NCBI RefSeq assembly: GCF_000422785.1
Contig: NZ_AUGS01000001.1
Location: forward strand, 372,001-436,000
From: Pseudovibrio exalbescens DSM 16456
GTDB taxonomy: Bacteria > Pseudomonadota > Alphaproteobacteria > Rhizobiales > Stappiaceae
Length of the DNA: 64,000 nucleotides
Direction of reading: 5' to 3'
In this document: in pieces, positions 6,547 to 23,019 of the stretch
Position numbering within the stretch: position 1 is the stretch's first letter
Layout of the letters: each line of letters opens with the position of its first letter
Program-made: the position numbers and the translations under genes
Notes under the pieces: generated by a model
What the model saw: only the letters and a program-made list of their open reading frames with translations
Told to the model about the DNA's origin: nothing
Databases searched by the model: none

Positions 6547-7044
6547 ATGACTGATGCACAGGATCCTGAACTGGAAGAAGCGCAGGAGCCGGAACGGAAA
6601 AGCAAAAAGAAGATTTTGGTCTTTGTTTTTGCGGGGGTGCTTGTTCTGTCCCTGCTGGGCGGAGTTGCGGCCTATATGGGGCTTTTGGACAGCGTGACGC
6701 AGTCTCTGGATCCTGATGCTGCCAATCAGCCTCAACAAAAGCCGGTCGTCTTTTACGATCTGCCGGAAATGACAGTGAACCTGGCAACCGATGATCGCCG
6801 GACGTTCCTTAAGGTGCGCATTGCACTGGAGGTGGAGAGCTCATCGGTTATTGACGACATCGAACCTTATCTGCCGCGCATCATGGATGCTTTTCAGATT
6901 TACTTGCGTGAGCTGCGCCCAGCGGACCTGGAAGGATCTGCCGGGTTGTTCCGCTTGAAGGAGCAACTCCTACGCCGCATCAATCTGGCGATCTATCCGG
7001 CGAAGGTGGACGGTGTTCTGTTCAAAGAAATTCTGATTCAATAG
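6547..7044 (+). CDS. fliL: Flagellar basal-body-associated protein FliL
   Basis: FliL is a single-pass inner-membrane protein that rings the stator and increases motor torque. The 165 residues have a short charged cytoplasmic N-terminus (ERKSKKK), one transmembrane helix (about residues 25-45, FVFAGVLVLSLLGGVAAY) and a periplasmic SPFH-like domain ending VDGVLFKEILIQ. The family patterns MTVNLATDDRRTFLKVRIAL and a basic LRRINLAIYP helix are visible. It starts the CtrA-box-controlled operon, with fliM 12 bases downstream. Confidence 0.93.
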   Translation: MTDAQDPELEEAQEPERKSKKKILVFVFAGVLVLSLLGGVAAYMGLLDSVTQSLDPDAANQPQQKPVVFYDLPEMTVNLATDDRRTFLKVRIALEVESSSVIDDIEPYLPRIMDAFQIYLRELRPADLEGSAGLFRLKEQLLRRINLAIYPAKVDGVLFKEILIQ

Positions 7045-7056
7045 GGGAGGCGTTGC

Positions 7057-8295
7057 ATGGCACAAGACACCAATGCGGCGCCCGGTAGCGCCGGAGGTCA
7101 GGACTGGGACGCGACCAACGCCGGGTTTGATGACGATCTGTCTGATGATGACGAGGATCTTGCGGCCGCGTGGGGTGCTGCGCTTCAGGAGCAGGGCGCG
7201 GCGAACGCTGAGGACATAGCGGCCCAATGGGCGGCGATGATCGATGACAGCGAGCCGGAGCTGGATTCCGCCACGCGCGGCGCTGACCGCATCCTCAATC
7301 AGGAAGAGATCGACAACCTTCTCGGGTTCAGCCTGGATGAATCGATTACCGGCGACAACACCGGCATTCGGGCGCTGATCAACTCCGCCATGGTCTCCTA
7401 TGAGCGTCTGCCGATGCTCGAGATCGTGTTTGACCGTCTTGTTCGCCTGACAACCACATCGCTGCGCAATTTTACGTCGGACAACGTTGAAGTTTCTCTG
7501 GATTCAATCACGTCGGTTCGGTTCGGCGATTATCTCAACTCCATTCCGTTACCGGCCATTCTTGGTGTATTCAAAGCCAGAGAGTGGGACGGCTTCGGGC
7601 TGGTCACCGTCGAGTCGTCACTGATCTATTCCATTATTGACGTTCTGCTTGGCGGTGGACGCGGCATGACACCGCTGCGCGTTGAGGGGCGTCCATACAC
7701 CACGATTGAAACCAACCTCGTGCGCCGGATGATTGAAATCATCCTGATAGATGCCGAGCAGGCGTTTGCCCCCCTGTCTCCCGTACAGTTGCCGTTGGAG
7801 CGTCTGGAGACAAATCCTCGATTTGCAGCAATTTCCCGTCCTGCCAATGCGGCCATTCTGGTCGAGTTGCGTATTGATATGGAAGACCGCGGCGGCAAGG
7901 TCGAGATCATGCTGCCCTACGCCACGCTGGAGCCGATCCGAGATCTTTTGCTTCAGATGTTCATGGGCGAGAAGTTCGGTCGGGATGCGATCTGGGAAGG
8001 CCATCTGGCGACGGAAGTGTACAGCGCTGAGGTGGAGGTCGATGCCGTCCTTTATGAGAACCACATTCCGTTGCAGCGGGTATTGGATCTTCAGGTCGGC
8101 CAAACTCTGCTGTTTGATGTGGGTCCCAAGGACCCGGTGAAGATCAAGTGCGGCGGGATTGAACTTACCGAGGGAACAATGGGACGTGTCGGCGACAACG
8201 TCTCCATCGAGATCGCCAACAAGTTGCGGCAACCGAAAATGTCGTTCGCTGCGTTTGAGCGATCCATGCAAAATAGTAAAATGGAAGGGTCCTGA
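7057..8295 (+). CDS. fliM: Flagellar motor switch protein FliM, extended N-terminus
   Basis: FliM is the C-ring middle protein that binds CheY-P. At 412 residues it is about 75 longer than the enterobacterial protein because of an acidic N-terminal extension. This holds two copies of a D/E-D-L/I-A-A-x-W motif (about 32-43 and 51-62, Trp39 and Trp58). The usual CheY-binding motif comes later, as ILNQEEIDNLLGF (79-91). The middle CheC-like domain (YERLPMLEIVFDRL onward) and the C-terminal SpoA domain (LDLQVGQTLLFDVGPKDPVK) are intact. fliN and fliG are not in this window. Confidence 0.95.
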   Translation: MAQDTNAAPGSAGGQDWDATNAGFDDDLSDDDEDLAAAWGAALQEQGAANAEDIAAQWAAMIDDSEPELDSATRGADRILNQEEIDNLLGFSLDESITGDNTGIRALINSAMVSYERLPMLEIVFDRLVRLTTTSLRNFTSDNVEVSLDSITSVRFGDYLNSIPLPAILGVFKAREWDGFGLVTVESSLIYSIIDVLLGGGRGMTPLRVEGRPYTTIETNLVRRMIEIILIDAEQAFAPLSPVQLPLERLETNPRFAAISRPANAAILVELRIDMEDRGGKVEIMLPYATLEPIRDLLLQMFMGEKFGRDAIWEGHLATEVYSAEVEVDAVLYENHIPLQRVLDLQVGQTLLFDVGPKDPVKIKCGGIELTEGTMGRVGDNVSIEIANKLRQPKMSFAAFERSMQNSKMEGS

Positions 8296-8296
8296 C

Positions 8297-8929
8297 ATGC
8301 CAATTGGGATGATCATCGAGATTGTAGTGGCTATCCTGCTGGTGATTACCATTGGGTATTGCTGGACCTTGAACAGCCGCCTCAAGCGTTTGCGTGCGGA
8401 TGAAGCATCGCTTCGGGCTACGATTTCCGAGCTTATAACTGCTACTGAAATTGCCGAACGCGCCATCCTTGGTCTCAAGTCCACGGCAGGCAATGCTGAC
8501 AAGACCCTGGGCGAGAGACTGGGCGAAGCGGAAGCCTTGTCTCGCAGGCTGTCCAGTCAGTTGGGTGTGGGAACGGAAGTACTGGATCGGGTTGGACAGG
8601 TGGCCGACGCGGCGGTTGCCGGAAAGGCTGTGCCGGGCATCAACAGCTATGAAGCAGCAGCTGCCGAGCTCGCCGCAGAGCAGGCAACAAGCACGGTATC
8701 CGCCTATGATGCCCACGGGACTACTGAGCAAACCACTTCGCATCAGGACTACGGGTATGATCGTGCGCCGGTTGCGGCCGCAGCTTCCGATATGGCACCT
8801 GCACAGGCCAGCGCCCCGGCACCGGCTGAACCCAGACACAGCCGCGCCAAGGATATTTTCAGAGCGGCTCAGGAATCGACTTCGCGGCTTGAAGAATTTC
8901 GTCGCCGGGCTCAGGGGAGAGTGGCTTGA
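8297..8929 (+). CDS. DUF6468-like membrane protein of the flagellar cluster
   Basis: The start is the ATG at 8297, one base after the fliM stop; the frame upstream overlaps fliM and is not needed. The 210-residue protein has one N-terminal membrane helix (about 4-24, GMIIEIVVAILLVITIGYCW), then a predicted coiled helix with NSRLKRLRADEASLRATISE and ITATEIAERAILGLKS (about 27-65), and a Pro/Ala-rich tail ending in a basic segment. The layout matches the DUF6468 family found between fliM and motE in alphaproteobacteria; that assignment is from memory of the family. The function is not known. It shares an operon with fliL-fliM and overlaps the next start codon. Confidence 0.8.
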   Translation: MPIGMIIEIVVAILLVITIGYCWTLNSRLKRLRADEASLRATISELITATEIAERAILGLKSTAGNADKTLGERLGEAEALSRRLSSQLGVGTEVLDRVGQVADAAVAGKAVPGINSYEAAAAELAAEQATSTVSAYDAHGTTEQTTSHQDYGYDRAPVAAAASDMAPAQASAPAPAEPRHSRAKDIFRAAQESTSRLEEFRRRAQGRVA

Positions 8930-9573
8930 AGCTTCGATTGCTACCCATTGTTGTTTTTGCCGTCAGCGCGCTGCTGGTACTCAAGGTCGTGGGCTTCTTT
9001 CTGGATGATCGCTACGACCTGAGTGCCGTGCGTCTTGCCGGTGCCCAGCAAGGGGTGTTGGATCCCTCCAGCGTTGATACCACACCGCCGCCGGGCCTGC
9101 CGGGTACGGAAGGCGCAGCAATGGGCGGTTCCGTTTCCGAACGGGCCGTTCTTTCCAGTTTGAGTGAGCGACGCAAGGAGTTGGAAAAGCGCGAGAAGGA
9201 ATTGGATCTGCGCGAGCAAATGCTGGCTGCAACGGAAGCTCGTGTGGAGAAGCGCATTTCGGAACTTAAGGAAATCGAAGCTAGGATCGAGGCAAACGTT
9301 TCTGCCCAGAACGAGAAAGAAGCTGAAGAAATCAAGGATCTCGTCAAGATCTACGAGAGCATGAAGGCCAAGAATGCTGCGCGTATTTTTGATCGTCTGG
9401 ACATGGATGTGCTTTTGAAGGTCGTCAGTGAAATGCAGCCGCGAAAAATGGCGGATGTGTTGTCTTACATGAGCCCCGATGCAGCCGAACGTTTGACGGT
9501 CGCGATTGCTGTGGGTCGACAGGGCGCGCCGGATCAACCGGAGTCGCTTTTGCCCAAGATTCAAGGCCAGTAA
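8926..9573 (+). CDS. MotE-like flagellar coiled-coil protein
   Basis: The TTG at 8926 overlaps the previous stop (TTGA) and is preceded by AGGGGAG at 8912-8918. The 215 residues comprise an N-terminal signal anchor (about 4-24), a Pro/Gly-rich spacer, a long charged coiled coil (about 80-150, with ERRKELEKREKELDLREQ) and a C-terminal helical domain resembling the intracellular N-domain of MgtE (KNAARIFDRLDMDVLLKV, EMQPRKMADVLSYMSP). This is the architecture of MotE in rhizobia and Rhodobacter, where it acts as a periplasmic chaperone for MotC/MotF. The next gene encodes a giant secreted protein, a plausible client. Confidence 0.8.
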   Translation: MKLRLLPIVVFAVSALLVLKVVGFFLDDRYDLSAVRLAGAQQGVLDPSSVDTTPPPGLPGTEGAAMGGSVSERAVLSSLSERRKELEKREKELDLREQMLAATEARVEKRISELKEIEARIEANVSAQNEKEAEEIKDLVKIYESMKAKNAARIFDRLDMDVLLKVVSEMQPRKMADVLSYMSPDAAERLTVAIAVGRQGAPDQPESLLPKIQGQ

Positions 9574-9644
9574 GGGCTATCGTAAGACGGCGTTAAGAAG
9601 CTGCTTGATAGAAATACGCAATTCTATGTCAGGGGAATCGGGCA

Positions 9645-12600
9645 GTGTTGGCGGGTTCTGAACCAACAGCGAAAAAGAGCTTGTCAGACCGGTGCGATGG
9701 CTTGGCCTTCCGCTGCGTTTTTGCGCGCGTGTTTTGCGCTGTCGCCCTGTCCGTTTTCGCGCTGTTTGCAGGTTACACTCCTGCATTTGCCGTTGGCGAA
9801 CCAGCGACGGTTACAGCCACTCAGGAAGACGGGTTTGCACGCCTCGTCATCAACTTTCCTGAACGAACCCTCCTGCCGGATTATGATGCACTGGTAACGG
9901 CTGGCGTTCTTCGCATCGCCTTTCCCGATGGCATTGATACCAACATTGATGAAGTGCCTGCGCTCTTGAGCGATTACATTTCGGTAGCCCGGCGCGATCC
10001 GGACGGTGCGGCCTTGCGTTTTGCCCTGAAACAACCGGTCAATGTAAACAGCATGGAAGCGGGGGAAAAGCTGTTCGTGGATCTGCTGCCACGCTCGTGG
10101 CAGGGCATGCCGCCCCCGTTGCCGGAAGATGTTGTGGCCGATTTGGCCAAGCGGGCCGAGGCCGCCATGCGCAGGCTGCGAGAGATTGAGCGGGACCAGA
10201 AACAAAAAGAGGTTGAGCAGGCCCAAGTTGATTTGCGGGTTGGAGAGCATCCGACCTTTACGCGTCTGGTGTTTGACTGGTCAGTGCCGTTCGACAGTGC
10301 CTTTGTTCGGCGTAACGATCGCGTGGAAGTTCAATTTGACCGTAAGGCCGAACTGAATCTGGCCCGTATGCTGATTGACCCGCCCGTGGGTGTTCTTGGA
10401 GCTCGTTCTGAGCTGCGTGACGCAGGGCTGTTTGTCGAACTGGCTATTGATCCGGCGGCAGATGTGCGGGCGTTCCGTGAGGGGTCGAGTTACGTGGTGG
10501 ACGTTACTCCGGTCGAAACCACGCCCAGTACCGCACAAAACTCGCTGCTGGATGAAGTAGAAGATGTCTATGTGGATCCGATCCTGAAGCAGGTTGAGGG
10601 AGAGGAGCGAGTTGTTTCGCTGGGAACGCGAGAGGAAGATGCGGGTAGCCAGCCAAGCGAGGCGCCTGTTGAGCGAGTGCAAACACCGGAGCAGAAACCT
10701 GAAGGCGTAGAGACGCCAGAAGTGGCTCCGACCGCAGCAGATACCGCGTCTGATGCAGAGCCTGCCGAAACGGTAAGGTCGGCTGAGCTGGGTCAGGTTG
10801 ACGATCCGATCGCTGCCGTGCTGGCACAAGCGGATGAAGTGACATTGGCGGCACGGGCGTTTGGTCTTCCAGAGGAACCGCTGGTGCAGTTGTCTGCGCC
10901 CCTGAAAGCGGAAGAAGAAGCGCGTATTGCGCTGACGGACGCCCCCTTGCGGGCGCAGCCGAACTTGCCTGAAGCCAAGCCTGGAACAACGAAGCAACCC
11001 GTTGATGATCTGGTGCCGGGGGCGCAAAATCGCGAGCGTCGGCCCAAGGAAAAACCAGAGTTATCGGATAGGGGGAGCGCGGCTGAAGACGTAGAACCAG
11101 CCCCTTCGAAAGTTGACAACACACCTTCGGCGCCCGTTGCAGCCGATCCGCAACAGCCGACACCGAACACAGATGGTTCTGATAGCGGACTGAGCACCCC
11201 GGAGAAGGTGACGACACCAGAAACAGGCGATCAGCCCGAAACGGAAACACGGCCCGATTCACAGTCATCTGCGCCGGGCGCGAACTCGGAGATTTCACCC
11301 GATATGCGCGGAACCGTGTCGGATGAGGGTGAAGCGCCGGCGAAGCCGGTCCGCTCAACGGCGCCGCAAAATGAAGATGGCCTGCCGCGGGTAATCCCGA
11401 TAAACAGCCGCACTACGGTGACTGAACAGCCGCGCCAACAAGCGCGACCTTCCAACCCGGAGGCGGTTCCACCGGAAGCACAAAAAACACCGGCGCCCCT
11501 GATTTCAGTGGAAGTGCGCCGGGTTGGGGATGCTGCGCAGGTGCACTTGCCGTTTGGCAAGAATGTATCGGCCGCGGTGTTTCGGCGTGGGCGCCAGCAC
11601 TGGATGGTATTTGACAGTGCTGTGCCGATTGACGACCGGGCACTGCGTGCTGCTCTTGAGCCGTTCGCAACCGACCTGAGCAACGAGGATCACAAGACCT
11701 ATCAATTGGTTCGCATGCGGCTGCGTCGTGCGGTTCTGGCCAGTGCGAGTGCCGGAAGCGATCGGTGGATCCTGCATGTTGGACCTTCCATCTCTGAGCC
11801 CAGTCAACCGCTCAAGGTGGAGCGCAATGTTCAGGGGGATGGTGCCGCGGTTCTTCGCGTGGCTTTGGGGCGTGGTGGGCGCATTCATGCCCTGAAGGAT
11901 CCAGATGTCGGCGATACGATCTACGCGGTAACGGCGCCGGGACCGGCGCGCGGCGTGATCAAACCTCATCGCTATTCGCAGTTGCAGTTTTTGCAATCAA
12001 TCCATGGCATTGCGGTCACCTTGTTTGCGGATGGGGTGAGTGTGGAAGTCAATGGAGAAGATGTCGTCGTCTCGCGGGATGACGGGCTGGCGGTTTCCAG
12101 CGAAGATCTCTGGCGTACCTTGGAAAAAGGGGCACCGCTCAAGGATCCCACACAGCCTGGCCTGATCGAGTTTGCCAATTTTACCACGCCCAACAAGGTG
12201 GAGTTTCGCGACAAGCTGCGCAAGTTTGAAGCTGCGGTCGCCATGGCCGAGCCCGACAAGATGAAGGGCCCCCGTCTGGATATGGCGCGGTTTTATCTGG
12301 CTCACGGGTTTGCGGAGGAAGCGCTGGGTCTTCTGGAGTTGGCCAAGGATCAAAACCCGACAGTTGCCACGGACGCCACGTTCAACGTGATGATGGGCGC
12401 AGCGCAGATGATGGCGAACCGACCGGAACAGGCGAAGGCCTATCTGGACAGTCAGGAACTGGTACGAAGCCCTGATGCGGCGGTCTGGAAAACACTGGCC
12501 GATGTTGCGTTGGAGGACTGGTCCAGCACGCTGCGTCATCTGACCGAAGCGGGCAAGGTGATCGACAGTTATCCCGACGAGATTCAGGTGGATTTTAACT

Positions 12601-13898
12601 TGGCGGCGGCCAAGGCTCACGTGGAGCTGGAAGACTTCGGAAGTGCTGCGTCTTATCTGGCGCAGGTTGAGCCATCCTCGGTCAGTGATGAGCAGGCGGC
12701 GCGGTATGACTTGTTGCGCGGACGTATTGCTGATGCCTCTGGGCGCACCAAAGAGGCAATGGATGCCTTCGAGTTCGTCATGGATCACTCAGAGGGTCCT
12801 GAGGCTGCAGAGGCCACGTATCGCCACATTGCCCTACGCTACCGCGACGGGTATCTGTCCGAGCAGGACGCCATTGACGAGTTGGCTGACTTGTCCACCA
12901 CATGGCGTGGAGACGAGACGGAACTGCGAACGCTGGACCTTCTGGCCAAGCTTCAGGCCAAGGAAGGGGACTACCGTCAGGCCTTCAAGGCCATGCATCA
13001 GGCCGTCTTGTCAAATCCCGATTCCAACTTGACCCGAAGCCTGCAAACGCAGATGGGAGACGTCTTTACCGATCTGTTTCTGCGCGAGGGGGCGGACAAG
13101 CTGGACGCCATCGATGCGCTGGCCATTTTCTACGACTTTCGCGAGTTGTTGCCGGTTGGCCATGAAGGCGATCAGATGGTCCGGTACATGGCGGATCGCA
13201 TGATTGATCTGGACCTTCTTGATCAGGCTGCACGTGTCCTGCGTCATCAGATCGATCATCGCCTGAAGGGCGCTGCCAAGGCGCAGATCGCAGCGGATCT
13301 GAGCGTTGTCTATCTGCTGGACCGACGTCCGGAGGAAGCCTTGCGGGTCCTCAGTCAAACCCGGCAGGCCCAATTGCCAACGACCTTGCAGCGTCAGCGC
13401 AATCTGGTTGAGGCAAGAGCCCTTACCGAGAGCGGTCGGCCTGATCTGGCTCTGGAGTTGGTGCGAAACATGTCCGGTGTGGATGTGGACCGACTGCGCG
13501 CGGACACCCTATGGGCCGCCAAGAGCTGGCAGAAGGCCGCAGAACAAGTTGAACGCATGCATGCGGGCCGGTGGGCGGATGCCTTCCCGCTCGACGGGCA
13601 GGAGCAAACAGATATCCTGCGCGCAGCCATCGGGTATTCTCTGGCAGGCGACAGTCTCGGGTTGGACCGTTTGAGGCAAAAGTACTCTGAGAAAATGAGC
13701 GAAGGACCCAACGCTGCCGCGTTTGAAGTGGTCACGCGGCCGATTGATGAGCGCGGTGTTGAGTTTCTCGACGTATCGCGCTCCATCGCAGCCACGGATA
13801 GTCTTGATGCGTTTCTGGATGAGTATCGGGCACAGTATCTGACGGCTGGTGGTCCAGAAAGCCCCAGACCGACCCGTGCAGAAGAAAGCGCACTGTAA
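9645..13898 (+). CDS. Giant secreted AMIN-like/TPR protein of the flagellar operon
   Basis: This 1417-residue protein starts with GTG at 9645 (AGGGGA at 9631-9636). A signal peptide follows, with hydrophobic core VFCAVALSVFALFAGYTPAFA, so it should be periplasmic or outer-membrane-facing. About residues 55-150 and 195-290 look like two AMIN-type beta domains, each with a central hydrophobic strand (ARLVINF; TRLVFDW) and a terminal FVDLLP or VVDVTPV strand. About 295-615 is an acidic, Pro/Glu-rich linker. Further AMIN-like beta segments lie at about 620-700 and 735-830, and TPR-type helical repeats at about 880-1360 (AHGFAEEALGLLELA; EDFGSAASYLAQVEP; KEGDYRQAFKAMHQAVLSNP). No catalytic motif is visible. 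It follows motE and ends against the convergent fliP. Function unknown; a peptidoglycan-attached scaffold is inferred. Confidence 0.85.
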   Translation: MLAGSEPTAKKSLSDRCDGLAFRCVFARVFCAVALSVFALFAGYTPAFAVGEPATVTATQEDGFARLVINFPERTLLPDYDALVTAGVLRIAFPDGIDTNIDEVPALLSDYISVARRDPDGAALRFALKQPVNVNSMEAGEKLFVDLLPRSWQGMPPPLPEDVVADLAKRAEAAMRRLREIERDQKQKEVEQAQVDLRVGEHPTFTRLVFDWSVPFDSAFVRRNDRVEVQFDRKAELNLARMLIDPPVGVLGARSELRDAGLFVELAIDPAADVRAFREGSSYVVDVTPVETTPSTAQNSLLDEVEDVYVDPILKQVEGEERVVSLGTREEDAGSQPSEAPVERVQTPEQKPEGVETPEVAPTAADTASDAEPAETVRSAELGQVDDPIAAVLAQADEVTLAARAFGLPEEPLVQLSAPLKAEEEARIALTDAPLRAQPNLPEAKPGTTKQPVDDLVPGAQNRERRPKEKPELSDRGSAAEDVEPAPSKVDNTPSAPVAADPQQPTPNTDGSDSGLSTPEKVTTPETGDQPETETRPDSQSSAPGANSEISPDMRGTVSDEGEAPAKPVRSTAPQNEDGLPRVIPINSRTTVTEQPRQQARPSNPEAVPPEAQKTPAPLISVEVRRVGDAAQVHLPFGKNVSAAVFRRGRQHWMVFDSAVPIDDRALRAALEPFATDLSNEDHKTYQLVRMRLRRAVLASASAGSDRWILHVGPSISEPSQPLKVERNVQGDGAAVLRVALGRGGRIHALKDPDVGDTIYAVTAPGPARGVIKPHRYSQLQFLQSIHGIAVTLFADGVSVEVNGEDVVVSRDDGLAVSSEDLWRTLEKGAPLKDPTQPGLIEFANFTTPNKVEFRDKLRKFEAAVAMAEPDKMKGPRLDMARFYLAHGFAEEALGLLELAKDQNPTVATDATFNVMMGAAQMMANRPEQAKAYLDSQELVRSPDAAVWKTLADVALEDWSSTLRHLTEAGKVIDSYPDEIQVDFNLAAAKAHVELEDFGSAASYLAQVEPSSVSDEQAARYDLLRGRIADASGRTKEAMDAFEFVMDHSEGPEAAEATYRHIALRYRDGYLSEQDAIDELADLSTTWRGDETELRTLDLLAKLQAKEGDYRQAFKAMHQAVLSNPDSNLTRSLQTQMGDVFTDLFLREGADKLDAIDALAIFYDFRELLPVGHEGDQMVRYMADRMIDLDLLDQAARVLRHQIDHRLKGAAKAQIAADLSVVYLLDRRPEEALRVLSQTRQAQLPTTLQRQRNLVEARALTESGRPDLALELVRNMSGVDVDRLRADTLWAAKSWQKAAEQVERMHAGRWADAFPLDGQEQTDILRAAIGYSLAGDSLGLDRLRQKYSEKMSEGPNAAAFEVVTRPIDERGVEFLDVSRSIAATDSLDAFLDEYRAQYLTAGGPESPRPTRAEESAL

Positions 13899-13942: not shown

Positions 13943-14689
13943 CTACCCCACCCCGAAACTGCGCACCAGACTGCCGGCGATCAACTGCCAGCCGTCAACC
14001 AACACGAAGAAAATCAGTTTGAATGGCAAGGAAATGACCACTGGAGGAAGCATCATCATGCCCATGGACATGAGAAGGGATGCGATCACCAGATCGATGA
14101 TGATGAACGGAAGGTAGAGCAGGAAGCCGATTTCAAAGGCCCGGCGCAGTTCCGAAATCATGAAGGCGGGCACCAGTACACGCAGGCTGATTTCCTCCGG
14201 GGTCTCCGGGGCGGGCATGTTGGCCAGATCCTGAAACAGCGCCAGATCGGATTCGCGTACCTGATTGCGCATGAAAACATGAAATGGTTCAGAGGCGCGC
14301 ACGAAGGCCTCTTCCATGTCGATTGTGTCTTCCATCAGTGGCCGCACGCCTGCATCGTAAGCCTCCTGAAAGGTCGGAGCCATGATGAAGGCCGAAAGAA
14401 ACAGGGCGAGCGCAATCATCACCGTATTGGGCGGCGCAGTTTGCAGTCCCAGGGCGGAGCGCAGCAATGACAGGACCACCACAATCCGGGTGAAACTCGT
14501 CACCATGATCAAGATGCTGGGAGCCAGTGACAGGATCGTGAGCAGCGCAACAATCTGCAAAGCCCGCTCGGTCAGCGTGGCGCTGTCGCCCAGATCAAGT
14601 GTCAGGCTTTGCGCCCAGGCACTGCCGCCGGTGGCCCCGCCGATCGCGATGACAAGGGCGAAGCCGATAAAGTATTTCCAAAAACGCAC
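13943..14689 (-). CDS. fliP: Flagellar export gate protein FliP
   Basis: FliP forms the core of the type III export gate with FliQ and FliR. The 248 residues begin with a cleavable signal (to about AWAQS), unusual among export gate proteins but normal for FliP. The family signatures are [19 protein letters not shown] (about 63-81), [20 protein letters not shown], and [18 protein letters not shown] followed by [14 protein letters not shown]. Four membrane helices are expected. It lies 12 bases after fliO on the minus strand and ends 44 bases from the convergent TPR gene. Confidence 0.97.
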
Positions 14690-14701: not shown

Positions 14702-16570
14702 CTATACGGCCTGTGAGCGTGAACCGCCTTCAAGCTCGTCCAGAAGTTCAGCCATGTCATCCTCGAAGGGTTTGAACTCATGGCCCTTGGTCTTGTCAGC
14801 CTTGTCTTCTGTCGGTTTTTCGTCAGTGGTCGCCTCAGGCTTGGTCTTCGCGTCCGCGTCAGGTTGATCTGGCGTTGTTGTATCCGCTGCGCCGTCTTCA
14901 TCGGCACCATCCACCTTGGCTGCGCCTGCATCCTTTTCTGGTGAGGCGGATGTGGCAGCTTTGGGCTCGGCGGGCTTATCAGCGGCCGGAGCAGGTGTTC
15001 CTGCGGCCGTTTTGTCTGTGTCCGGCGTGGGCCCTTCCTGTGCGTCGGGTTTGTCGGTCCCCTCGGCTTGCTTGGGTGTCTTTTCGGCTTCTGCCGACGG
15101 TGCTGCCTTTGCCGAGGCTGAGGTGGCCTTGGTGGGTTCTTCGATTGCGGCTTCCAGGTCTGCTTCCAGACCTTGGGCTACGGCTGCGGTGTCGGCCGGT
15201 TGGGCTGGTGTCTTGGGGTTTGAGGCACCAAAGCGACGTTGATTGGTAGCAGCCTGGCCATTTGCTGTTGTTGAGCCTGTGCCATAGACGCTTCTTGTGC
15301 GTGATGCCGGACCGGAGAGTGGGGGTGTGATCGGTTTGACATAGGCTGGACGCGGCTGCTCTGCCGGTTTGTCAGTCGGTGCTGCGCCTGCCTTGTCATC
15401 GGAACTGTTCTCCGACGCCTGAGAGGCCGCAGGTTTGTGTGCTTGGCGCATGCTGAAAGGCATTGGACGCTGCGCCGGATGTGGGCGCTGGGCAGGCCGT
15501 GCTGAGGCCGCTGGCGCTGGCTTTGCCTCGGGCTTGGCCTCGGGTGCTGCCTGTGCGCTGTCATTCGCCGCTGCGGCGGGGTGATGAGAGGCGGTCTTCG
15601 CTTCATCTTTCTTGGGCGTGTCGGTGGTCTGAAGTGCCGACTTTTCTGCAGGCTTTGCCTGATGATGCGCCCCATGCGAAGCTGTTGCGCGCTCTTGCGG
15701 GCCCTCCTTGGCTGCTGCTACGGGCTGCGCCTTGGCGGCAGGTTCCAGCTTTGCCTGATGATGTGCCGCTGAGCGTGAGGGCGCTGCTGTTGGCGTGGCC
15801 TGTTCTGCCTTGGCCGCAGGTCGCGGCGCTTGATGTCCGGCATTGGCCGAAGGGGCGTTGGACTGGGTGCGTGATTGTCCCTGAGACCGGGTCTGATTAG
15901 CCACGTTGCGAACGGCGGCCGTTGCAGCGCCGAAAATCCGCTTTGGGGCGAGCTTGGCAACGGCTGAATCCGGGTCTGCATGATCCAGATGTGGCGGTTC
16001 GTAGGGGCTGGTCGGCTTGGTGTATTCGGGACGGGCGGGGCGTTGCGCTTGTGGCGCTGTGTGAGCGGCCGGGGCGTGGGCTGGCTGGGCCGATGTGGTC
16101 GCCGAGTTTGCTGGGGCGGGACTTGCAGGCTCACCCGTTGTTGTCGGCGCAGGCTCTGCGTCCTGCAACTCGGTTGCTGTCGGCAACAGGGTTTCGTCGT
16201 AGATTGTCATGGCGGCGTTTGCGTAATGGCCGGGTCGCGTCCGATCGTTAACCGGCTTGCCGTGTGCGGCCGCTTTCACGATGTTCTGCTCTACAACAAT
16301 GTCAGCATTGCCGCCGATGAGAATCAGGTGCTCCACATTATCCCGGCGCACCAGCAACAACCGCCGGCGGGTGTCTACATCTGCTGCATCCATGATGGCA
16401 ATGCGGGGCTGGCGATTGCGTGCGCCCTTGTACGTGGTTCTCGCGTATTTCTTGAGAAGGGGAATGATGATCGCGATCAAGGCCAGAACCGTGATCAGTG
16501 CGATGATTACCGAGAGCAGTAGTGCTGTTTCCGGCGCAAGATTGAAGGTGCTCGCCAGCCAGTCTTTCAT
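14702..16570 (-). CDS. fliO: FliO with very long Ala/Pro-rich tail
   Basis: FliO assists FliP assembly in the export gate. The N-terminus is FliO-like: a membrane helix (about 15-40, LLLSVIIALITVLALIAI), a basic juxtamembrane segment and a small beta domain with DTRRRLLLVRRDNVEHLILI and GGNADIVVEQNIV (about 66-98). Most FliO proteins stop by about 100-150 residues; this one runs to 622. Residues from about 130 on are dominated by Ala, Pro, Lys, Glu, Gln and Thr, with a repeated HHQAK motif, and end in an acidic helix (DDMAELLDELEGG). Downstream fliP is intact, so this is not a frameshift product. The role of the tail is unknown. Confidence 0.85.
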   Translation of the reverse strand: MKDWLASTFNLAPETALLLSVIIALITVLALIAIIIPLLKKYARTTYKGARNRQPRIAIMDAADVDTRRRLLLVRRDNVEHLILIGGNADIVVEQNIVKAAAHGKPVNDRTRPGHYANAAMTIYDETLLPTATELQDAEPAPTTTGEPASPAPANSATTSAQPAHAPAAHTAPQAQRPARPEYTKPTSPYEPPHLDHADPDSAVAKLAPKRIFGAATAAVRNVANQTRSQGQSRTQSNAPSANAGHQAPRPAAKAEQATPTAAPSRSAAHHQAKLEPAAKAQPVAAAKEGPQERATASHGAHHQAKPAEKSALQTTDTPKKDEAKTASHHPAAAANDSAQAAPEAKPEAKPAPAASARPAQRPHPAQRPMPFSMRQAHKPAASQASENSSDDKAGAAPTDKPAEQPRPAYVKPITPPLSGPASRTRSVYGTGSTTANGQAATNQRRFGASNPKTPAQPADTAAVAQGLEADLEAAIEEPTKATSASAKAAPSAEAEKTPKQAEGTDKPDAQEGPTPDTDKTAAGTPAPAADKPAEPKAATSASPEKDAGAAKVDGADEDGAADTTTPDQPDADAKTKPEATTDEKPTEDKADKTKGHEFKPFEDDMAELLDELEGGSRSQAV

Positions 16571-20454: not shown

Positions 20455-23019
20455 ATGAAAGAAACCGATACCCGCCCGCCGGAACCTGTCATTGACCGCA
20501 GTGGGGGCGGTGGAAGCATCGGAATGTTGATGTTGCTGGCGTTGGGGCTTGCAGCTGCAACGGCCATTATTGCCGTCATGAGCAGGGAACAGGCAGAGCC
20601 ATATATTCTTGGTCTGCTCGGTGTTCTTGCGGTTGTGGGCGTGTTTTCGCTTTTTGCGGGCGCCATCGGCCTCATCCGATTTGCCTCGCGCCGTGATGGC
20701 AATCCACTGGCTGAAGCATTTCTGGATTCTCTTGAAGAAGGTGCGGTGCTCGTGGATGACACGGGCCGCATCGTTTATGCCAACAAGGCCTATGCGGATC
20801 TGACAGGGGCCGTCAGTCCCGGTGATGTGCGCACGGTGGAGCGCGTGTTTTCCGCTGATCCGGAGGCCGCAGACGCCATATTCCGACTTTCGAAAGCGGT
20901 CCGGAATCATCGCCGGGCTCAGGAAGAAGTGCGCTTGCCAGCAGCCATCGGGCGAATTGATGGTGGGTCGCGGTGGTATCGTATCAGCGTTCGTCCCCTT
21001 CAATATGGCGACAAGAACGGCACCACTCCGTCCAACCTGACCGTCTGGCAAATTGCCGATATCTCCCGCGACCGGAAAGAACAGGAAACGTCGTTTCAGG
21101 AACTGCAGCGGGTGATCAATTTCCTTGATCATGCCCCCGCCGGTTTCCTGTCCTGTGATGCTGCCGGTCGCATTGTTTATTTGAATGCGACGCTTGCGGA
21201 TTGGCTCGACTACGATCTGACTCAGTTTGTTGCCGGTGGTTTGACCCTTGCAGACATCATTCGCGGTGATGGTGCCGCTTTGGTTCGTGCCATTGGCGGC
21301 AATGAAGGGGAGGTGAAGACCGAAACCTTTGACATTGATCTGGTCACGCGGGACGGCACAGGCTTGCCGGTGCGCCTTGTGCACCGTGTGCCTTTTGGCG
21401 CGGAAGGTCAGGCGGGCGACAGTCGCACGCTGGTCCTCAATCGCTCTCCCGGTGAGGAGAGCGCCGAAGCGGTTCGCGCAGCTGAAGTCAAATTCTCCCG
21501 GTTCTTCAACAACACGCCAGTGGCTATTGCCTCAGTTGAGAAGGCCGGTCGGATTCGCCGCACCAACGCCCAGTTTGTTCGGTTGTTCGGACAGGAAAAC
21601 GGCCTGAACGAAAAGGCGCGCCTCGTTGATTTTATTGATGAAAGTGGACGGGCGGATCTGGAAGATGCGCTGCGCCGCGCCGCGCAGGGGCAAGGAGAAA
21701 TTCCTCCGGTTGATGTGGTTTTGGGTGTGGGTGACGGCAGTCGGTCCGCCGCATGTTACGTGTCGGCCGTTCTGGATGCGCAGGCGGATGAGGAAGTGGC
21801 CGTCGTCTATGTGTTGGAAACAACACAGCAGCGCGCGCTTGAAGCGCAGTTCGCGCAAAGTCAGAAGATGCAGGCCATTGGCCAGTTGGCCGGCGGCGTG
21901 GCGCATGACTTCAACAACGTGCTCACGGCCATTATCGGCTTTTCTGACTTGCTGCTGGCTAGCCATCGGCCAACGGATCCGGCGTTTCAGGACATCATGA
22001 ACATCAAGCAGAACGCCAACCGAGCGGCCGGACTGGTGCGGCAGTTGCTGGCGTTCTCGCGCCGGCAGACGCTGCGACCCAAGGAACTGGCGCTGACGGA
22101 TGTTCTGGCAGATCTGACCATTTTGCTGGACCGGCTCGTGGGCGAAAAGATCGAGCTGCATGTGGTGCATGGGCGCGATCTTTGGCCAGTCATGGCGGAT
22201 GTGAACCAGCTTGAGCAGGTTATTGTCAACCTTGTGGTCAATGCGCGGGATGCCATGCCGCAAGGGGGGGAAGTCACCATTCGCACCCGCAATGTCAATG
22301 AAGATCAGAGCGAGGAGTTTGACGATACGCGCGGGATGCCCATGGGCGATTATGTGCTCATCGAGGTGGAAGACAATGGCCACGGCATGCCGCCTGAGGT
22401 ACTTGGCAAAATCTTCGAGCCGTTCTTCTCCACCAAGGATGTGGGCAAGGGCACGGGGTTGGGCCTGTCTACCGTCTACGGCATTGTCAAGCAGACTGGC
22501 GGCTATGTTTATGCCACCAGTGAAGTGGATGTAGGCACCACGTTCCGCATCTTCTTGCCGCGTCATGTCACGGCGGAATTGCCGGTGGTCACAGCGAAGG
22601 TGGAAGAAAAGCAGGTTGCGACGGATCTGACCGGATCTGCCACCATTTTGCTGGTTGAAGATGAAGAAGCGGTGCGGGCCTTTGCAGCACGGGCGTTGTC
22701 CTCACGGGGCTACGAGGTGTTTGAGGCTGGGTCCGGTACCGAAGCGTTGGAGATCATGGAAGAAACGGACGGCGGCGTTGACCTTGTGGTTTCTGATGTG
22801 GTGATGCCGGAGATGGATGGGCCGTCGCTGTTGATCGAGCTGCGCAAGACACGGCCGGACCTGAAGATCATTTTCGTTTCGGGTTATGCTGAGGATGCTT
22901 TTGAGAAGAACCTGCCGGCAGATGAGAAGTTCACCTTTCTGCCCAAGCCATTTACCTTGAAACAGCTGGCAACCACCGTGAAGGATGTGTTGGAAAACGG
23001 CCCTTCGCAACGGGTTTGA
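20455..23019 (+). CDS. cckA: Hybrid histidine kinase CckA
   Basis: CckA feeds phosphate through ChpT to CtrA and CpdR in alphaproteobacterial cell-cycle and motility control. The 854 residues contain two membrane helices (about 22-42 and 51-74), three PAS-like sensor segments (about 88-190, 217-330 and 345-455), the HisKA motif [20 protein letters not shown] with His484, an ATPase domain with Asn596 in [12 protein letters not shown] and a GKGTGLGLS lid, and a C-terminal receiver with phospho-acceptor Asp781 ([12 protein letters not shown]). This order and the VAHDFNN signature are typical of CckA. The location directly after flhB is seen in several alphaproteobacterial orders. No terminator separates it from flhB. 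Confidence 0.94.

Follow-up and report, generated by a model that had tools for sequence, protein, structure and literature searches.

A flagellar gene run of Pseudovibrio exalbescens DSM 16456 encodes, one behind the other, a MotE-type protein of 215 amino acids (8926-9573, forward strand) and a giant protein of 1417 amino acids (9645-13898, forward strand) in which AMIN domains precede an array of tetratricopeptide repeats (TPR). The window analysed is a stretch of 64,000 nucleotides from a 4.16 Mb draft genome (contig 1, bases 372001-436000), and both genes are in its list of open reading frames (ORFs) at the positions given by the original prediction. Because of published work on MotE and MotK, on FssB, and on FlgY and PflA, our best reading, to which we give a probability of about 0.8, is that the pair makes up the E-ring and the spoke or stator scaffold of the primary (subpolar-type) motor, of the MotK / FssB (CC_2058) / PflA kind. 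The analysis itself establishes the gene order and the predicted folds, shows that the AMIN domains are internal repeats, delimits a family that spans the class and finds the protein together with one motor type. The scaffold is of a published kind; what is added is how large it is, its threefold AMIN repeat, a sequence family found across the class and a genome with two motors.

Domain layout and predicted folds of the giant protein

The giant protein opens with a probable signal peptide (residues 1-49, 9645-9791), its most hydrophobic windows beginning at residues 24-29 and a putative cleavage site lying after an AFA motif found by eye. Two AMIN domains follow, at residues ~52-150 (9798-10094; model, hhalign, Foldseek likeness to PilQ and AmiC) and, behind a connecting helix, at residues ~192-291 (10218-10517; model, Foldseek, Pfam, hhalign). 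An acidic, proline-rich linker with a net charge of -33 (residues 301-617, 10545-11495) separates them from a third AMIN domain (residues 618-717, 11496-11795; model, hhalign), from a fourth beta domain that is not recognisably AMIN by the secondary structure of the model and hhalign (residues ~720-815, 11802-12089) and from a TPR-type array of 31 helices, or some 15 hairpins (residues 851-1399, 12195-13841; model, Pfam, Foldseek), all of these on the forward strand. When the protein is aligned with 31 relatives from the host's order, residues 50-300 and 620-1400 are conserved and 301-617 poorly so, the occupancy of the linker being 0.18-0.65 per block over residues 301-600.

Single-protein Pfam scores are weak, at 16 bits for AMIN-like and 10-16 bits for the TPR models, too weak to call AMIN. 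Across the 32 family members, at E (expectation value) up to 0.1, AMIN-like (PF24837) is matched by 8 (best 5.2e-4), AMIN by 2, TPR_2 (PF07719) by 27 and PF14559 by 20. Profile-profile comparison relates the first three beta domains to one another (probabilities 94.3-97.3, E 1e-7 to 3e-11): hhalign gives 96.8 for the first against the second, 94.3 for the first against the third, and 97.3 with E 2.8e-11 for the third against the second. As a candidate fourth AMIN, the fourth beta domain was rejected (probability 0.4-2.5 against the three, with 0.1-0.3 for a control from the TPR stretch). This domain, between the third AMIN and the TPR array, is kept along with the large form of the protein.

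The two conserved parts were folded separately, each with the 32-row alignment. The N-terminal model (mean predicted local distance difference test, pLDDT, 95.4) has two beta domains linked by a helix, and the C-terminal model (mean pLDDT 88.7) has two beta domains and then the 31 helices. In a Foldseek search of the PDB, the sole match of the N-terminal part under E 0.001 was PilQ (3jc8_Qa, 4.2e-4); AmiC (4bin, 0.027) and further PilQ structures (4aqz, 0.078; 4av2, 0.17) stand among the first 50 matches, a mixed list that also holds small heat-shock beta sandwiches and other proteins. For the C-terminal part the first match was 9hmf_K (E 7.5e-11), described as 'periplasmic scaffold of the Campylobacter jejuni flagellar motor', with the runner-up at 5.1e-8. 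Entry 9HMF holds alpha-carbon coordinates of the scaffold, and PflA is predicted to consist of 16 TPR motifs, an unstructured linker and a beta sandwich (PMC12222027). Among sequence matches of the giant protein to PDB chains there was no flagellar scaffold chain, the presence of the PflA sequence in that library being unchecked. The original prediction, which read AMIN and TPR domains by eye, an acidic linker and an exported-type protein of 1417 residues behind a MotE gene in a flagellar operon, agrees with the ORFs, Pfam and the models, and the two domain readings are borne out by structure prediction with its PilQ/AmiC and scaffold matches.

Other identities fared poorly. PorW/SprE and SctY reached 35.6 and 33.2 bits, far under the NCBIfam cut-offs of 250 and 70, a generic TPR likeness, and the likeness to LpoA is of the same weak, generic kind. 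MotC, with which the protein had also been compared, has no NCBIfam model that matches it at E up to 1.

Co-occurrence with the primary flagellar motor

The giant protein is present in 89 of 150 genomes of the host's order, conservation that speaks against a chance ORF, and FliM in 101. It accompanies every strong FliM match (E below 1e-30; 87 genomes) and is missing from the 13 genomes whose only FliM match is weak (1.9e-13 to 6.6e-27), of the divergent, lateral type. The two further carriers are G134, with a FliM fragment at a contig end (1.5e-19), and G144, which is 61% complete and the only one of 49 genomes without FliM to have the protein. At the threshold of this order-wide search, the gene is single copy in the host.

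Across the class, a profile of the C-terminal part matched 211 of 385 alphaproteobacterial genomes, 9 of them weakly (E above 1e-10), and FliM matched 213. Both were found in 193 genomes, the profile alone in 18, FliM alone in 20 and neither in 154; the link is strong but not perfect at this level. Among the best 150 of the 211 matches, 140 lie in open frames of at least 950 residues (median 1147.5), compared with 652 amino acids for MotK. The giant protein belongs to a class-wide sequence family and, in the order, goes with one motor type.

Gene order in relatives

The genes fliM, pflI, motE and that of the giant protein stand together in all 31 fetched relatives of the host's order, fliL accompanies them in 30 (the exception ends within fliM at a contig edge), and the giant gene is directly behind motE in 30. 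The sole break of this kind among the 31 is in L059 (G117), where about 4.5 kb of other sequence lies between the two genes (L059:6733-11215). Among named relatives, the best 80 of 494 candidates and mostly Pseudovibrio, Roseibium/Labrenzia, Stappia and other Hyphomicrobiales, motE lies -200 to 600 nt upstream in 72 and 616-3326 nt upstream in 4. No motE was seen in the remaining 4, of which three have frames that start at a contig edge and one, L171, has 6.7 kb of upstream DNA.

Further out in the class the arrangement loosens. At L235-L240 the run fliL-fliM-pflI-motE lies 0-2.1 kb ahead of the homologue, at L232 and L233 motE is about 6 kb away, and at L224, L225, L230, L231 and L234 none of the four genes was found in the fetched stretches, some of which are cut by contig ends. 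On plasmids of Erythrobacter aureus and Sphingobium sp. V4 the homologues (E 1.7e-71 and 1.4e-74) follow within about 1 kb of motE; in Azospirillum oryzae the homologue (best piece 9.9e-38) stands right before motA-motB, some 6 kb behind motE. Roseobacteraceae plasmids of Marinovum algicola and Alloyangia pacifica encode homologues of 629 and 616 amino acids (E 6.3e-25 and 1.3e-27, matches spanning positions 232-537 of the 793-position profile). The linkage to motE that had been expected across alphaproteobacteria therefore holds as closeness in most relatives, but the Azospirillum, Marinovum and Alloyangia arrangements count against a strict version of it. On the Marinovum plasmid pMaD5 (L187, L252), MotE and the TPR homologue are apart within one flagellar cluster.

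L229 (G477) has the genes fliL-pflI-motE-motA-X, arranged as published for C. sphaeroides fla2; no fliM lies beside them and the genome has no FliM match anywhere. Within a set of seven proteins, the TPR profile hits protein X (830 amino acids) at E 2e-19 and the AMIN 2 profile hits it at E 1e-6 (best piece genome-wide, E 7.6e-8).

Certain other alphaproteobacteria have, in the interval from motE to the large gene, one or two genes for short MotB-plug proteins, a few of which match OmpA in part (L236:6029-6898, L237:6615-7331, L239:5105-6531, L232:6043-7557, L240:10275-10949). The MotB-plug model PF13677 matched 7 of 9 scanned frames, 5 of them above cut-off, and these proteins could be stator-linked anchors. 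In the host genome PF13677 matched only the two MotB proteins.

Size and AMIN number across the family

AMIN domains were counted as matches below 1e-3 in complete frames. Three, together with the fourth beta domain, were found in 31 of 31 order members and in 72 of the 74 named relatives with complete frames; of the remaining two, one has a single AMIN and one has none. A first class sweep of 25 loci gave three AMIN in 19 and two in 6; these loci are the best-scoring ones and so favour large forms, and three of them repeat order members. The 19 fetched class loci have three in 7, two in 2, one in 4 and none found in 6. A second sweep of 21 loci, made up of weak matches and several repeated genomes, has three in 1, two in 2, one in 4 and none found in 14. 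In the five plasmid members none was found below 1e-3. 'None found' may mean a diverged AMIN, as L189 shows one under a more sensitive search, and some of the counted frames are short pieces (L227, L231). From these counts the three-AMIN form is fixed in the sampled members of the order and common, not universal, in the class.

A tree of the TPR core was computed with FastTree from 89 of the 186 homologues (out of 190) that had sufficient length. Loci of the second class sweep (L191-L220) were excluded, only every twelfth named relative (L106-L185) was kept, and some genomes are represented twice, under two locus identifiers. In this tree the large forms mostly fall into a single group and the small ones mostly have long branches. 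The large L224 and L225, however, are placed among the small forms, several support values are low and the tree is unrooted, so that the relative age of the two forms cannot be read from it.

MotE and the second flagellar system of the host

Residues 137-187 of MotE match MgtE_N (PF03448) at 26.5 bits, barely above the cut-off of 25.9, so that it has the armadillo (ARM)-like head of the E-ring proteins MotE, FlgY and FlbB. Residues 77-170 resemble FlbB, a collar protein of spirochaetes, matching its NCBIfam model at E 4.3e-5 but far under the cut-off (23.4 bits, cut-off 110), and a coiled coil probably precedes the head. The most hydrophobic 15-residue windows begin at residues 5-9, and by eye no obvious cleavage site is present at the N-terminus, features more like an anchor than a free chaperone.

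The host has a second flagellar cluster, on contig 5 and outside the window (L067:1192-18699, L243:311-11208), in the order flgI-motE2-flgH-fliL-fliP and motB2-motC-fliK, gene names beyond those scanned being given by eye. A motE between flgI and flgH is the Sinorhizobium arrangement (PMC10954123). The MotE2 gene (L067:8665-9276) encodes a protein 31% identical to MotE1 over 107 residues, and the MotC-like gene behind motB2 (L243:9979-11208) matches two NCBIfam MotC models at E 2.3e-57 and 6.1e-77 (195 and 260 bits, where the cut-offs are 462 and 487). Another motA-motB pair, on contig 6, is taken as the primary one by elimination. MotC is present in 27 of the 150 order genomes: in all 13 with only a divergent FliM, in 9 without a FliM match, and in 5 of the 6 with both FliM types, the exception being G116, whose second FliM is on a 9-kb contig. 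It is in none of the 83 genomes that have the giant protein and no second FliM. Judged from its genes, the host has two motors, each with its own MotE and partner. We apply the labels subpolar and lateral by likeness to the systems reported in Labrenzia and Pannonibacter (PMC6406911), a paper whose main text does not contain 'MotC', 'MotE' or 'TPR'.

The locus

The run begins with the stator-associated protein FliL (6547-7044, PF03748, E 2.4e-20) and continues with FliM, the primary-type C-ring (cytoplasmic ring) protein (7057-8295, PF02154, E 1.7e-62), and a DUF6468 protein (8297-8929), all on the forward strand. The last matches PF20072 at E 9.2e-23 on the longer ORF 8159-8929; its start, an ATG right after the fliM stop, was chosen by eye, and from operon position, as in PMC10954123, it is probably PflI. 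The TTG start of motE overlaps the stop of this gene, the giant gene starts with GTG, and Shine-Dalgarno-like purine-rich stretches can be seen by eye upstream of both. A convergent fliP (13943-14689, reverse strand, PF00813, E 9.1e-81) closes the run. On the same strand as fliP, a gene with a weak, short FliO match (14702-16570, reverse strand, 622 residues; 17.3 bits, cut-off 22) has a long tail of low complexity behind that match, rich in Ala, Pro and Lys by eye. Pfam also places a hybrid histidine kinase with PAS domains, HisKA, ATPase and receiver within the flagellar region (20455-23019, forward strand).

Discussion

On the reading we favour, MotE dimers, anchored by their N-terminal hydrophobic helix, would ring the MS-ring (membrane and supramembrane ring) through their ARM-like heads, with the coiled coils pointing outward. 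The giant protein would be exported, its C-terminal TPR superhelix docking on MotE and extending outward as a spoke, and the long acidic linker and the AMIN domains may reach the peptidoglycan and the stators, placing MotAB around the rotor. Export, ring position, binding to MotE and MotB, stator recruitment and peptidoglycan binding are here expectations carried over from the relatives. MotE and MotK are reported to be periplasmic and needed for rotation, to bind each other and MotB2, and to sit at the flagellated pole (PMC10954123), and FlgY and PflA are described as E-ring and spokes (Feng et al., PMC11870540; the 2026 E-ring review, PMC13023049). These two sources group MotE with FlgY and FlbB, and MotK, MotC and CC_2058 with PflA, by structure, PflA being described as not conserved in sequence (PMC11870540); CC_2058 of Caulobacter has been suggested as a distant MotK homologue (PMC10954123).

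Several observations weigh against this reading. Against 9hmf_K the TM-scores (template modelling scores) are a low 0.21-0.22, with many unrelated TPR proteins trailing it from E 5e-8 on, so that rank and context carry the match to PflA. Chain K is itself judged to be PflA from its size, its 773 residues fitting PflA from residue 16. Full-length PflA has about 788 amino acids. The link to MotK and CC_2058 runs through proteins at the same kind of locus, MotK and CC_2058 themselves being compared by description. At the class level, 20 genomes have FliM and no profile match and 18 the reverse, and the Marinovum and Alloyangia homologues lie within a flagellar cluster without adjoining motE. Finally, C. 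jejuni is reported to be motile without the ring (PMC13023049), and MotE may accordingly have a minor role.

Three other explanations have to be set against the ring-and-spoke scaffold. MotE could be a dedicated periplasmic chaperone that folds or protects the giant protein and is no part of the motor, as proposed for MotE and MotC of Sinorhizobium, and this is what the original prediction supposed when it had MotE fold its neighbour. We consider it unlikely. The position of motE directly upstream of the giant gene in most relatives would suit it, as would the degradation of MotC upon motE deletion in S. meliloti (PMC13023049). However, in C. sphaeroides the dependence runs the opposite way, MotE needing MotK and MotK being stable without MotE, and MotE goes to the flagellated pole (PMC10954123). 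Homologues such as FlgY and FlbB are visible rings (PMC13023049), and the N-terminus of the window MotE, read by eye, is anchor-like. The same review favours MotE as a ring component, while noting a lack of direct evidence from S. meliloti and C. sphaeroides.

The giant protein could instead handle peptidoglycan for the passage of the rod and P-ring, or activate a cell-wall enzyme. Its three AMIN domains would fit such a task, and the TPR part weakly matches LpoA/LppC, an activator of penicillin-binding proteins (LppC at E 8e-4, LpoA chains at 0.003-0.004). Yet LpoA is one of many generic TPR matches behind a flagellar scaffold that comes first in Foldseek, and Caulobacter delta-fssB (CC_2058) cells make filaments but are paralysed and do not swim (PMC7885107), which points to rotation rather than assembly; we regard this explanation as very unlikely. 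That the protein is a general envelope component, in the operon by accident of gene order, could draw on the cases in which it is apart from motE (L171, L059, Marinovum, Alloyangia). It is close to refuted by the co-occurrence with FliM, the protein being present wherever a primary FliM is found in the order and missing from all 13 divergent-only genomes and from 48 of the 49 without FliM.

A motor-scaffold role, as first put forward from the DNA alone, is supported by the predicted structural likeness to the Campylobacter scaffold. It can no longer be called new or a parallel solution, since scaffolds of the MotK, CC_2058 and PflA kind were published between 2021 and 2026 (PMC10954123, PMC11870540, PMC13023049, PMC7885107). 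The rhizobial MotE-MotC pair belongs to the other, lateral flagellum, which is separate in the host genome. In the open literature, with PMC11870540 taken without its supplements, which may list one, we recognised no named Hyphomicrobiales member.

A bolder proposal, to which we would give slightly less than even odds, is that the large form with three AMIN domains and fifteen hairpins is the standard spoke of alphaproteobacterial primary motors, that MotK and FssB are reduced, fast-evolving versions of it, and that bacteria with two flagella run MotE1 and the giant protein in the subpolar motor and MotE2 and MotC in the lateral one, with different scaffolds and torque. A sequence profile now exists for a scaffold that had been linked across phyla by structure and gene position, and it allows prediction of which alphaproteobacterial motors carry such a spoke. 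One genome with two pairs of MotE and partner, one per motor, offers a comparison from which it would become clear whether stator number or torque depends on the partner, and it bears on whether MotE in the alphaproteobacterial group is a chaperone or a ring part.

One of the closest systems described so far is MotK of Cereibacter sphaeroides (Velez-Gonzalez et al., 2024, PMC10954123), a periplasmic, exported protein, AMIN then TPR, encoded after motE in a fliL-pflI-motE cluster. The giant protein has the same N-terminal AMIN fold and C-terminal TPR region by models, Foldseek and Pfam, and is likewise encoded with fliL, pflI and motE. A profile bridge to a MotK-type locus is provided by protein X of L229 at E 2e-19, and the 616- and 629-residue Roseobacteraceae plasmid proteins are of MotK size. 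The two differ in length (1417 versus 652 amino acids), in AMIN number (three versus one) and in the fourth beta domain and long linker of the giant protein. MotK follows motA, whereas no motA lies between motE and the giant gene here, the host's motA-motB pairs being on contigs 5 and 6. CC_2058 / FssB of Caulobacter crescentus shares an AMIN-like N-terminus and TPR (PMC7885107, PMC11870540, PMC10954123), lies directly downstream of the MotE homologue CC_2059 and is needed for swimming; its gene is of the 2-3 kb class (PMC10954123), compared with 4.25 kb. MotC of Sinorhizobium and other Rhizobiaceae is also a TPR-type periplasmic partner of MotE (PMC13023049), but its models do not recognise the giant protein. 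PilQ and AmiC share the AMIN fold of the N-terminal domains; by Pfam the giant protein has neither a secretin nor an amidase domain. The window MotE resembles the MotE/FlgY/FlbB group (COG3334) in its MgtE_N head and FlbB likeness, and its hydrophobic N-terminal helix with no clear cleavage site is like that of FlbB and CC_2059 and unlike that of Sinorhizobium MotE (PMC13023049). PflA of Campylobacter jejuni has an AMIN-type beta sandwich, a flexible linker and 16-17 TPR motifs, and forms spokes outward from the E-ring (PMC11870540, PMC12222027). By its models the giant protein has this layout of AMIN, linker and TPR array, at a TM-score of about 0.2 to what is probably the PflA chain; it carries three AMIN domains where PflA has one beta sandwich and works with PflB, the other half of the Campylobacter disk.

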